This document shows, in pieces, positions 6,011 through 39,950 of a stretch of DNA of 64,000 nt. The first letter of the stretch is position 1. Each line of letters starts with the position of its first letter. Origin of the DNA: an uncultured cyanobacterium. GTDB lineage: Bacteria > Cyanobacteriota > Cyanobacteriia > PCC-6307 > Cyanobiaceae. The position numbers were made by a program, and so were the translations under genes. The stretch spans positions 1 to 64,000 of the forward strand of contig CAIZQU010000096.1 of NCBI GenBank assembly GCA_903935205.1. The letters run 5' to 3'. Under the pieces are notes generated by a model. The model had not been told where the DNA came from. It did no database searches and saw only the letters and a list, made by a program, of their open reading frames with translations.

Positions 6011-6360
6011 TGAAGGCGATCAAGGGAAGCACATACCATTCATTTCTACGGTTCAATGGTTGCATGATGCCGAATGCTGATGGGATTTCTCGCAACTGAT
6101 AGCCGTTTGGTATATCATGGCTCGAGGCTGGTGAACGTCGCCAGCGATGGGCCGTCGAAACGCCTGAATGCCACAGCCCGGCTGCGTTGGTGGTAGCTCC
6201 GGCGGGCTGTGGCCGCTGGCGGAGCCGCTGCTGACCCGTGAGCTCCAGGCTTTGGCAGAAGGCGGCACCCTGCGGCGTCCTTGGTCTGCCCATCCGACTG
6301 CCGCCGCAGCTGCCGAGGCTCCGGCGAGCGTCCTCCCCGCCTGGCCGCGACGCCGCTGCC

Positions 6361-6516
6361 CGATCCAGAAGCCTGATCCAGAAGCCCGATCGACCAGCCC
6401 GATCCAGCATCCTGATCGAGCATCCCGATGGAGCATCCCGATGGAGCATCCCGATGGAGCAGTCCGATGGAGCAGTCCGATGGAGAGGACCGATGAAGAG
6501 GACCGATGAAGAGGTG
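6361..6516. repeat. 13-bp tandem array A (12 units)
   Basis: Twelve consecutive 13-bp units grading from CGATCCAGAAGCC through CGATGGAGCATCC to CGATGAAGAGGAC. Every unit starts with (C/T)GAT, and neighbouring units resemble each other more than distant ones, as expected from stepwise tandem duplication. The period is not a multiple of three, so the array is non-coding. Confidence 0.85.
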
Positions 6517-6953: not shown

Positions 6954-7094
6954 AGATCTGCCACCTCGATCTGCCACCTCGATCTGCCACCAGGTCTGCT
7001 ACTCGATCTACCACTAGATCTGCCAATCAGATCCAACAACAAGATCCAACAACAAGATCCAACAACAAGATCTGCCAACCAGATCTGCCGATCA
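6954..7094. repeat. 13-bp tandem array B (11 units, GATC in most)
   Basis: About eleven units of 13 bp (CGATCTGCCACCT, GATCCAACAACAA, GATCTGCCAACCA); one unit near 6993 is 11 bp long. Nearly every unit carries GATC, often inside AGATCT. The array ends six bases before the ATG of the acetyltransferase gene, so it occupies that gene's leader and promoter region. Confidence 0.85.
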
Positions 7095-18118: not shown

Positions 18119-18323
18119 GAGAGGGTGGGGGCCAGGAGCGGTAAGCCAGGGGTGAGGGCCCAAGGCCGGGCCGGAATGCAGCAGCCTGGGTGGCCTGACT
18201 CTGGGATCCTCAGGGGTGGGAGTTAGGCCCAAAACTCCGGCCAGGACCAAGGGATTCGATGGCCTCCAACACCATCCTGACAAAGGCGTCCGCGCGCAGC
18301 GCGCAGGTCTTGGCGGGCACGCT
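18119..18323. other. Intergenic stretch
   Basis: About 200 bases between convergent transcription units. GC-rich, with no recognisable gene or strong terminator. Confidence 0.4.
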
Positions 18324-18511
18324 TCAAAGGCCCTGGAGCGAGGTGGCGGCCTGAGCCAGGGTCTGGCGAGAAGTCATGATCAGCCAATGGGCCTTTGCAG
18401 CTCCAATGGCAAAGAATATGATTATCATCCAAAGAAAGATCGGACCTTGACGAAGAGCAGCTAAGCGCAGGGCAAAACAGTATCCTGCAAAAGCATAGAC
18501 GATGATAGGCA

Positions 18512-18519
18512 CAAGGAGA
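18512..18519. repeat. Target-site duplication, copy 1
   Basis: CAAGGAGA, identical to 18643-18650, directly flanking the 123-bp element. Confidence 0.8.
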
Positions 18520-18642
18520 CCTGATCAGGCAGCAAGCTCCGCAGGGTGCCATTGCGCCTCGATTGGGTCGCCGCAAAAGCCTTTGCCAGCCTTGGGACTG
18601 GGTGGTCCCGAGATCCGCTGCGGAGCTTTCTGCCTAATCAAG
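18520..18642. mobile_element. MITE-like non-autonomous insertion, 123 bp
   Basis: The ends form 25-bp imperfect terminal inverted repeats (18520-18544 and 18618-18642; 22 of 25 match), with the shared core AAGCTCCGCAG. Both sides carry the same 8 bp, CAAGGAGA, at 18512-18519 and 18643-18650: a target-site duplication. The element holds no gene and is more GC-rich than its surroundings. It breaks a membrane-protein gene, and removal restores the frame. An 8-bp duplication occurs in several transposase families, so the parent is unidentified. I saw no second copy in this window. Confidence 0.85.
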
Positions 18643-18650
18643 CAAGGAGA
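18643..18650. repeat. Target-site duplication, copy 2
   Basis: CAAGGAGA, identical to 18512-18519, on the other side of the 123-bp element. Confidence 0.8.
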
Positions 18651-18996
18651 AGTGTTGCGGCAATGGCAACAGCAGGCCGTCTTAATTGAGAGTGAAATCG
18701 TTTTATGTCGATTGCCACAAATGGAAGCGCATAGGAAAATAAAGCTACTTGCGGTGCAGGGTCGTTTGGGTGTTGCCATGCTAAGGATACACAAATAACA
18801 CCAAAAACAAAATAAGCATACGAGAATTTCTCAATCCAATGCCGCCTGAAGTTCCGGCCACTGACAAACGCCGTGAATGGCGTCGTCCATAGCAACCACT
18901 GAACCCACGGCCTCAACGCTGCAATCATCTCACATCCTGGTATAGCTCCCACCGGCGTAGGCACGGCTTTCACCCTGGCCGCCTGAGGCGTTGCGA

Positions 18997-19662
18997 TCAG
19001 CCGTCTGGGGTGCGGGAGGGGAGAAGAACCTGGTCAATATCGTCGGCAATCTTGGCGAACAGATCATGGCGGCCTCGCAGCCGCTTGAGCAACAGCTGGG
19101 CATCGAGCGCTGTGGCCGGATCCCTGAGGCTGCTCTTCAGCTCGATCACGATTCGGCTCTGGGTATCAAGATCGAGAAACGAGGCGAGATCGATTTGATG
19201 GCTGAGGCTGGCCAGATAGGAAATTGGTGGCTCCGGAGCCGTTGGCAACGGCTCGGGAAGCTCCTGGCCGAGCGGTAAGGCCTGCAGCGCACGCGCTAAC
19301 GCCTTGATGCTGTTGATGTCGCGATGCTGATAATTGACGAATTGAACTTGTTGCAGCCCTGCAGGAAGCAGCGACACCGGCACATCCTCCGCGACCAGCA
19401 CCGGCAGGATCGATTTCTGTAAATCGTCTGCATACTGGTATTCACGCTTGCATGCCAATGAATCCACCACGGATGCCTTGCTCATCACCAGCACAAAGAT
19501 GTCGCAACCACGGATCTCCTTCAGGATCTGGTCCCACCAGAGCTGACCTCCGGCCAGTTCGGCATCGAGCCAGACGGAGTGGTTCAGATCTTCCAGATCA
19601 CCGGCAAGCAACCTGGCCTGGGTTTGATCGCTTCGGCTGTAGCTGATGAACAATCTTGCCAT
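18997..19662 (-). CDS. TIR-domain protein
   Basis: A 221-residue protein from ATG 19662. Residues 1 to about 125 are a TIR domain: LFISYSRSDQTQARLLAGDL at the start, SVWLDAELAGGQLWWDQI, then CDIFVLVMSKASVVDSLACKREY. The Glu at position 74 in CKREYQYA is where TIR enzymes have the catalytic Glu that cleaves NAD+. The rest (about 150-221) is helical and unrecognised (QIDLASFLDLDTQSRIVIEL). Bacterial TIR proteins are often effectors or signal makers in phage defence. A near-consensus promoter lies just upstream. The next gene on this strand, 23 bases on, is the disrupted membrane protein, so the two looked like an operon. Enzyme activity is inferred. Confidence 0.85.
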   Translation of the reverse strand: MARLFISYSRSDQTQARLLAGDLEDLNHSVWLDAELAGGQLWWDQILKEIRGCDIFVLVMSKASVVDSLACKREYQYADDLQKSILPVLVAEDVPVSLLPAGLQQVQFVNYQHRDINSIKALARALQALPLGQELPEPLPTAPEPPISYLASLSHQIDLASFLDLDTQSRIVIELKSSLRDPATALDAQLLLKRLRGRHDLFAKIADDIDQVLLPSRTPDG

Positions 19663-19686
19663 TGCTTACTGCTATTTATTTCTTTG

Positions 19687-19715
19687 ATCTTATCAATAAG
19701 AGCGTCATCTGTCAA
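19687..19715 (-). promoter_or_regulatory. Sigma-70-type promoter of the TIR gene
   Basis: On the minus strand, TTGACA (19715-19710) and TAAGAT (19692-19687) are separated by exactly 17 bases. The predicted start of transcription is about 18 bases before the TIR ATG. It is the closest match to a consensus promoter that I noticed in the window and lies in AT-rich DNA. Confidence 0.65.
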
Positions 19716-19801
19716 TCGCGGTCTGGGCCCATCCGCACCAGGTCGAACGACCAGAGCTTCGCGATCAGCGACTCAATCGCGTCTTTCCAGTTGTCTCAAC
19801 C

Positions 19802-37019: not shown

Positions 37020-39950
37020 TCAGCCTCCAGGAGCTGCCGCCGGCCTTACAGGGGCCGCCGGTGAACCAGCGCTCACCACAGAGGCCTTGCCCTTGCGGCT
37101 GACCAATTCAGCCAGGGCCTGCTTCAGGCTGCGCTCCATCACGATCGTGCGGCCATCGGTCACCACCACGCGCACCAGGGTGGGAAGGTCGCTGTTGGAG
37201 GATTGCAGATAGATCGGCTCCACATAGAGCAGCCCCCTGCCCACCGGGAGAACCAGCAGATTGCCGTGGATCACCCTGGAGCCAGCCCTGTTCCAGAGCC
37301 CGAACTGATAACTGATCGCCGGGTCCTGTTCGATCAGGGCCGACACCTGCTGGGGCCCCAGCAGCAGCCTCTGTTGCGGGAAGCGCACCAGCAGCAGCTC
37401 GCCGTAGTTCGGCGGATCGTTGCGGGCCGCCAACCAGGCCACCAGGTTGGGGCGGCGCAGGGGCGAGAAAGGCAGCAGGAGCACAAATTCTGAGCGCTTC
37501 TGGCCTGGCAGCTGCAGAGTGAGGTGATAGGGCTCCACCGGGGTATTGCTGGAGCCATAGATCTCGAGAGGCACCGCCCAGACATCATCACCGTTGTAAA
37601 AAGTGCGCACGTCGGTGACGTGGTACCGCAGCAGCCTTTCCGCCTGAATCGCAAACTGGCTACGCGGCACCTGGATATGGGCCTGGAGAGCCTCAGGCAT
37701 CGCCGCGAGCGGGCGGAACAGTTCCGGGAAGGCGCGGCGCCAGGTGGCCAGGACAGGATCGCTGGGATCGCTCACATAGAGCCAGACCTTGCCGTTGTAG
37801 GCATCGACCACGGCCTTGACGGGGTTGCGGAAATAGCGGATACCACTGGGATTGGCCTCGGAATAGGGATAGCTATCACTGGTCGTGAACCCATCCAACA
37901 ACCAGTACTGATGTTGATCGCTGGAATAATCCGGGCTGCCCGTCACCCTGGCCGAAACAAGATAGGGCTGACTTTCGAAGCGTAGAAATGGCGCCAGGGC
38001 CCGCAGCCTTTCGCTGACCTGGCGGCGTAGATGCAGGCGCGAGCCCTCGGTGAGCGAGCCTGAGAAGAGCAGCCGTGGCTCACGCAGATAGGCGGCTGCC
38101 ATCAGCCTCTGGTGCGGGCCGTTGACCGGTAATCCGCCCGTGCCGCTGTAGTGGGAGTAGATGTTGAGCTCGCCTTCCGGGTAGTCGAACTCCCGGACCT
38201 GCGAGGGGGCGATGATGTAAGCGGCGGGCGCCGAGCCGTAATATAGGCGCGGCCGACCAACCGGCAGGGCCGATCGCGCCCCGGCGTCGCTGATCCCGAG
38301 GGAGGAGATACCCTGCACCCGCCCACTGCGGCCGAGGTCCTTGACGAAGAACAGCGGCAGGCCATCGGGCCCGAAGGCATTCACCGGAGACACGGTGAAG
38401 CCATAGCCGTGGGTGAACACCATGTGACGGTTCAGCCAGGTGCGTGAATCGAGGGCGAGACTCCCCGTATCGAGTTCGCGGGCCGTGATCAGCACCTGTT
38501 GCGACCCTTGGTCGGCCCTGTCCCCGGCGAGGGGATAGCGATCGACGGCGGCCGAGAAGAATCGGTAATAGAGGCGCAGCTGCTGCAGCTGACGGTTGGT
38601 GGCCAGCAGCGGCTTGCTGTCCCAGAGGCGGACGTTGGCCAGGGTCCCCGGGGCGCTGCGCAGGTCCTCGGGCCGCAGCTCCTGGCGGGGCTCCTGGGCT
38701 AGCTGGCGCACAGCCGACAGTCCAAAGGCCCGGCGGGTTCCCTCGATCGAGCGTTGCAGGTAGGGGGCCTCAATCGCCAGCTCCCGTGGCTGAACCACCA
38801 GCCGCTGCACCAGCGGCGCCACGATCCATTCGACGAAGGGAACCAACAGGGCTGTGGTCGCCAGCGGAATCAGGGCTCCGCGGCGCAGCCACCCCCTGGG
38901 GAGTGGCACCATCAGTCCCACGGCGGTCAGCAGCAGCAGGGCCGCCAGGATCAGGCGCAGGGGAAGCCTGACATGCAGGTCGACGAAACCGGCCCCGGCC
39001 GCCACGCCACTGCCCCGCACCATCAGATCAAAGGGGGCGAAGGCATTGCTCAACGAGGCCATCACCGCCAACACCGCCAGCTGGGGCTGAAGCACCCGTT
39101 GCTGGGCCTTGCTGAGGCCCGGGTAGCGCAGATCGCTGAGGCTCGTGCCCTCGGTGAGGGTGAGCCAGAGGCAGCCCGCCAACCCCATGGCGGCCTGGGC
39201 GATGACCACGCTGACCAGCAGATGCAGGGCCGGCAGCTGCAGCACCGTGAAGGACAGGTCGAATCCGGCCACCGGATCGTGTTGACCGAAAGGAGAGGCG
39301 AGCAGGGCGGGCACCCAGAGGCTCCAGCCGCGGGCCAGGGCGGTGGCCGACGCGATCAGGGCCGCTCCGAGGGTGATCCGCAGGGTGCTGTAGGGCCAGA
39401 GCAGCAGGGGCAGCACCAATCCCATGGCCAGACCGAGAAACAGCCAGGGAGGCAAGTCGGCCAGCATCGGGATTCCGGTGATCACCCGGCCGCTGAAGGG
39501 GGAAGCGATCAGGTCGCGGGCCTGCACCAGCAGGTAGGTGAGACCGCCGGCGAACAACAGCAGCAGGCTGCCGAGCAGGAGAAGCAGCGGCAGGGACGAC
39601 AGGGTCAGCAGAGGCAGGTCTGGAATCGGCTTGGGGGCGGCGGTCTGCCGCAGGCGCCAACAGCGCTGCAGCTGCTGCAGCTGGAGGGGAATCCCCAGAC
39701 CCAGGACCAGGGTGAAGGCGATCAGCTGCAGCAGCCAGCGGCGCAACAGCACCACTTCCGCATCAAATTGGGCAAACCACTGCCACTCGATGCCAAGCCG
39801 GGGCAACAGCACCGCCAGGCCAAGGACCAGGGCCAGCAGTGCCAGCAGGGAGACCAGCGGGAACTGGGACCGGGGGGACTGAGGTGGTGCCGAGGGGAAC
39901 CGGGACGGGGTTGCCGGCCGCAGACCGCCGGCGGAGGCTGGGGGTTTCAC
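37020..39950 (-). CDS. UPF0182 family large membrane protein
   Basis: A 976-residue protein. The N-terminal third has seven or more membrane helices (for example FPLVSLLALLALVLGLAVLL and LPLLLLLGSLLLLFAGGLTY), with the family feature LGIEWQWFAQFDAEVVLLRR. The remainder is a large exported domain (RLWDSKPLLATNRQLQQLRL, GFTVSPVNAFGPDGLPLFFV, YIIAPSQVREFDYPEGELNI). UPF0182 proteins occur in cyanobacteria, actinobacteria and clostridia; the function is unknown. The GTG start at 39950 fits the usual N-terminus. The gene is divergent from thrC and converges on fbaA beyond its terminator. Confidence 0.9.
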   Translation of the reverse strand: MKPPASAGGLRPATPSRFPSAPPQSPRSQFPLVSLLALLALVLGLAVLLPRLGIEWQWFAQFDAEVVLLRRWLLQLIAFTLVLGLGIPLQLQQLQRCWRLRQTAAPKPIPDLPLLTLSSLPLLLLLGSLLLLFAGGLTYLLVQARDLIASPFSGRVITGIPMLADLPPWLFLGLAMGLVLPLLLWPYSTLRITLGAALIASATALARGWSLWVPALLASPFGQHDPVAGFDLSFTVLQLPALHLLVSVVIAQAAMGLAGCLWLTLTEGTSLSDLRYPGLSKAQQRVLQPQLAVLAVMASLSNAFAPFDLMVRGSGVAAGAGFVDLHVRLPLRLILAALLLLTAVGLMVPLPRGWLRRGALIPLATTALLVPFVEWIVAPLVQRLVVQPRELAIEAPYLQRSIEGTRRAFGLSAVRQLAQEPRQELRPEDLRSAPGTLANVRLWDSKPLLATNRQLQQLRLYYRFFSAAVDRYPLAGDRADQGSQQVLITARELDTGSLALDSRTWLNRHMVFTHGYGFTVSPVNAFGPDGLPLFFVKDLGRSGRVQGISSLGISDAGARSALPVGRPRLYYGSAPAAYIIAPSQVREFDYPEGELNIYSHYSGTGGLPVNGPHQRLMAAAYLREPRLLFSGSLTEGSRLHLRRQVSERLRALAPFLRFESQPYLVSARVTGSPDYSSDQHQYWLLDGFTTSDSYPYSEANPSGIRYFRNPVKAVVDAYNGKVWLYVSDPSDPVLATWRRAFPELFRPLAAMPEALQAHIQVPRSQFAIQAERLLRYHVTDVRTFYNGDDVWAVPLEIYGSSNTPVEPYHLTLQLPGQKRSEFVLLLPFSPLRRPNLVAWLAARNDPPNYGELLLVRFPQQRLLLGPQQVSALIEQDPAISYQFGLWNRAGSRVIHGNLLVLPVGRGLLYVEPIYLQSSNSDLPTLVRVVVTDGRTIVMERSLKQALAELVSRKGKASVVSAGSPAAPVRPAAAPGG

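Follow-up and report, generated by a model that had tools for sequence, protein, structure and literature searches.

Insertion sequences of the IS1595 family have ISXO2-like transposases and terminal inverted repeats. They usually generate 8-bp target duplications and encode a zinc ribbon together with a DDE_Tnp_IS1595 domain (PMC8101967). In one member of the family, ISEc69, the outer positions of the duplication are reported to be AT-only (PMC7835479). The MITEs described from cyanobacteria (Nezha; Microcystis, Anabaena) are short non-coding elements, and a review describes how such elements inactivated a cyanobacterial gene cluster by insertion (PMC10969869); the term IS1595 does not occur in that review. 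We analyzed a 123-bp element in a 64,000-nucleotide stretch of DNA (the window) from an uncultured cyanobacterium. The element resembles IS1595-family elements in its 8-bp target duplications, in its terminal inverted repeats and in the A or T residues at the outer duplication positions, and a related complete element in a congener has both the Zn_ribbon_IS1595 and the DDE_Tnp_IS1595 domains. It differs from the family in carrying no transposase, and its ends are CTTGATTAGGCAG..AGCTCCGC. Like the cyanobacterial MITEs, it is short and non-coding.

The coordinates of the element and of the features around it are given in Table 1. The 25-bp terminal inverted repeats are imperfect and match at 22 of 25 positions (three mismatches); a repeat search recovered the inner 23 nt of both ends with a 91% match. 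When we scanned the window for the MITE end, allowing up to 3 mismatches, only these two places were found, while none was found in 100 shuffles. A transposase gene would not fit into 123 bp. Among other repeats in the window, 66-bp tandem repeats at 1-179 and 243-679 (2.7 and 6.6 copies, ~90% matches, on opposite strands) look like leucine-rich-repeat coding sequence. Arrays of a 13-bp unit, which is not a multiple of three, were found at 6358-6514 and 6954-7089, with 26- and 39-bp higher-order periods.

Table 1. Features at and around the insertion site (window coordinates)
Feature	Position	Strand	Remarks
MITE, 123 bp	18520..18642	+	Basis: six more copies elsewhere in the genome, 98-100% identical along all 123 bp
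Left terminal inverted repeat, CCTGATCAGGCAGCAAGCTCCGCAG	18520..18544	+	4-5 of 25 positions differ from IS ends of the same genome
Right terminal inverted repeat, read inward, CTTGATTAGGCAGAAAGCTCCGCAG	18618..18642	-	2-4 of 25 positions differ from IS ends of the same genome
Target duplication CAAGGAGA, first copy	18512..18519	.	Exact 8 bp
Target duplication CAAGGAGA, second copy	18643..18650	.	Exact 8 bp
N-terminal part of interrupted frame (possible membrane protein)	18638..18928	-	Coding status doubtful
C-terminal part of the same interrupted frame	18324..18511	-	Coding status doubtful
Low-GC, strain-specific segment with the interrupted frame and a TIR-domain gene	18119..19801	.	Absent in congener G022

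The genome to which the window belongs (3.82 Mb in 169 contigs) contained seven full-length copies of the MITE, five of them identical and two with one common two-base variant. A perfect 8-bp duplication surrounded each of the seven copies, and all seven 8-mers were distinct (CAAGGAGA, TTGCACGA, TCTCCCCA, TGTGATGT, AGCGTTTT, AGAAAGCA and ACGCGTCT). Since the 8-mers were perfect at each copy yet different between copies, they show insertion with target duplication. The near identity of the seven copies, with their duplications intact, indicates from the sequences that the MITE spread recently in this genome. The original prediction of a 123-bp MITE-like element with an exact 8-bp duplication was thus borne out: the repeats matched at the expected number of positions, and the six extra copies had the same ends and were likewise flanked, each by a different 8-mer. 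As judged by neighbouring frames, the other copies lay near the start or upstream of an AraC-type regulator, a CsbD-like gene, dnaX and a UbiD-family gene, which is a usual location for MITEs; of the remaining two, one was close to a frame that had no Pfam match and the other was in a repeat-rich stretch. The copy on locus L003 (contig C57) was situated in a stretch at ~39060-39790 that also contains imperfect direct repeats of greater length, in which words such as CCATGGGAGATCCTG recur. A search of 41 other genomes of the genus identified single ends only and no two-ended copy, and no copy was found in viral contigs. The joined flanks of all seven loci had no match across any junction in 42 genus genomes, where only adjoining coding sequence was matched and no empty site or excision was seen, and the flanks of the window site had no match at all in the genus relatives, all of which belong to other species.

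The end motif of the MITE also caps two IS1595-family elements of the same genome, copies of which break the assembly. We found 27 IS ends with this motif near contig breaks, differing from the MITE ends at 2-5 of 25 positions. Read inward, two of the four IS end types opened frames with a transposase start (...MNRIQFQPGMSLSQFLE... and ...MGRNAIQFQKGLSVPEFLK...), which we take to be N-termini of IS1595-like transposases, also from their similarity to the protein of a congener (G030, below). Another end type encoded a transposase C-terminus that scored 28.8 bits against DDE_Tnp_IS1595, for which the cut-off is 27. The right end of the MITE was similar to the transposase-C-terminal end of the type B IS (82% over 39 bp), and the MITE interior had no recognisable derivation from either IS. 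A search of this assembly for an intact IS1595 transposase found none, and only the C-terminal fragment passed the cut-off, probably because the repeats collapsed at contig breaks. If the IS ends derive from repeats that were collapsed in the assembly, the same duplication is expected, in complement, at both ends of any one copy. Complementary 8-bp flanks were found in six contig-end pairs among the 27 ends (0.005 expected), and each pair consisted of an N-terminal and a C-terminal end of the same IS type; these six pairs thus show the 8-bp target duplication of the IS. The pairing also suggests which contigs adjoin in this genome, namely C15/C99, C5/C169, C101/C73, C147/C77, C99/C2 and C74/C113. 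As a side observation, many of the assembly breaks are accounted for by the IS1595-family copies, whose 8-bp flanks distinguish at least 21 sites.

A complete relative was identified in congener G030. This 1,033-bp IS (L066:495-1527) had ends that match the MITE motif (CTTGATTAGG.AGC.AGCTCCG) and the target duplication AAAGGAAA, and its transposase scored 112 bits against DDE_Tnp_IS1595 (PF12762) and 50 bits against Zn_ribbon_IS1595 (PF12760). The G030 element directly adjoins frames of a restriction-endonuclease-like gene (RE_endonuc, PF19778), which it appears to split.

If one transposase mobilised the MITE in trans, the IS and the MITE would be expected to have a common target preference. 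At the 21 distinct IS sites the outer duplication bases were A or T at 42 of 42 positions, and at the seven MITE sites at 13 of 14 (W-N6-W in both cases). Relative to an AT content of 0.35, a value taken from the GC-rich surroundings, this preference had p-values of 7e-20 for the IS and 1e-5 for the MITE; relative to an AT content of 0.5, the p-values were 2e-13 and 9e-4, respectively. The common W-N6-W preference agrees with mobilisation of the MITE by the IS transposase but is not proof of it.

Taken together, we consider it highly probable that the 123-bp element is a non-autonomous MITE related to the IS1595 family, that it was most likely mobilised in trans by a transposase of that family, and that it has recently spread. 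The earlier proposal of a recent insertion that a parent IS mobilised through its transposase is therefore supported: IS elements with matching ends occur in the same genome and in G030, and the parent can be assigned to the IS1595 family. Most likely, a zinc-ribbon/DDE transposase of the IS1595 type would bind the MITE ends in trans and would join the element to its target with an 8-bp stagger, the outermost two bases of which would be A or T; repair of the staggered join would then yield the 8-bp duplication. This mechanism draws on what is known of the family, on the size of the duplication and on the common target preference. The copy in the window inserted into a strain-specific segment of low GC content, where it interrupts an open frame of doubtful coding status.

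That segment, ~1.68 kb in length, lies between genes for fumarase and a Cache-domain protein. The protein matches (tblastn) to these two genes were only ~40 bp apart in congener G022, so this genome lacks the segment. Nine other congeners had a PhoH-like gene within ~0.8 kb after fumarase and no TIR gene detectable by protein tblastn. The TIR-domain gene within the segment (18997-19662, minus strand; TIR_2, PF13676, 78.8 bits) had weak matches only in PADLOC, to the TIR parts of short Argonaute, SAVED-TIR and Thoeris-like proteins.

The original prediction had further held that the element splits a membrane-protein gene and that its excision restores the frame. With the element in place, the minus-strand frame stops a few codons into the MITE. 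When 131 bp were removed, the frame was joined as predicted into 157 codons starting from ATG, with two hydrophobic stretches, one of them across the junction. However, removal of the element and one duplication always gives the pre-insertion sequence, so the restored frame is not independent evidence, and what had been presented as a three-way agreement hard to get by chance is really a two-way one; the agreement of repeats and duplication itself is far beyond chance, given the six further copies with their own duplications. Because the frame is restored by definition, all that an uninterrupted frame at the junction can test is whether the element hit coding sequence. On this question, a genuine membrane-protein gene may have been knocked out by the insertion, possibly one that formed an operon with the TIR-domain gene just upstream on the same strand, and a clean excision would then restore it. 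The joined frame, with its ATG and its hydrophobic stretches, and the position of the TIR-domain gene argue for such a gene. On the other hand, a junction-spanning open frame of at least 157 codons occurred in 161 of 2000 dinucleotide shuffles (8%), and the GC content of the restored frame by codon position (0.53/0.47/0.48; GC3 0.475) had no position-specific bias, while GC3 was 0.86 for the neighbouring fumarase and PhoH-like genes and 0.69 for the TIR-domain gene. A Pfam search of the restored frame gave no match. The comparison with intact homologues likewise brought no support, since neither the 201 genomes drawn from the family nor the 386 drawn from the phylum (overlapping draws) contained a convincing homologue across the junction, and none that was convincing was found in phages, plasmids or viral contigs. 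The matches to the restored frame were weak (E 0.002-0.008 per genome), three coming from the family search and two from the phylum search; the three from the family search, which were the ones re-aligned, look spurious as homologues. On balance, we lean somewhat against the split of a membrane-protein gene. An orphan, recently acquired membrane-protein gene at the insertion site is possible.

Three other readings concern the element itself. In the first, the MITE owes its movement to an IS family other than IS1595 whose transposase likewise makes 8-bp duplications. The MITE interior, which has no clear sequence in common with IS1595 elements, and the lack of an intact IS1595 transposase gene in the assembly would fit such an origin, but the MITE and the IS1595 elements of its own genome have both the end motif and the W-N6-W preference in common, and we regard this origin as very unlikely. 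The second concerns older relatives of the MITE, which in the same genome comprise a copy on contig C80 with 77% identity over 123 bp and a partial copy on contig C54. The cyanobacterial MAG UBA5018 contains a 123-bp relative with the same ends and 68% identity (L112, 955-1077); as its flanks lack a perfect 8-bp duplication, we treated this copy as an old relative. The partly conserved interior and the common length of the C80 and UBA5018 copies could reflect an old lineage that was moved in trans by IS1595 elements and retained for a host role, such as that of a hairpin leader or an insulator in front of genes, a reading to which we likewise give very little weight. Least probable of all is an extragenic hairpin repeat (a REP/BIME- or attenuator-like RNA) that spread otherwise and has the 8-bp repeats as part of its unit: strong folding is obtained for both strands of the element (z -4.5 and -5.7) and several other copies are upstream of genes, but strong folding follows from the inverted ends, an Rfam scan of the window gave no family match, and seven different flanks, each perfect, are simply explained only by insertion with target duplication.

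The MITE is a clear but ordinary type of element, and the general phenomenon is well known. The case shows that restoration of a frame by excision is, on its own, no evidence for a split gene. In addition, it links a MITE family, complete with its target duplications, to IS1595-family elements of a cyanobacterium, and the W-N6-W preference common to the IS and the MITE makes it a small, testable case of trans-mobilisation.
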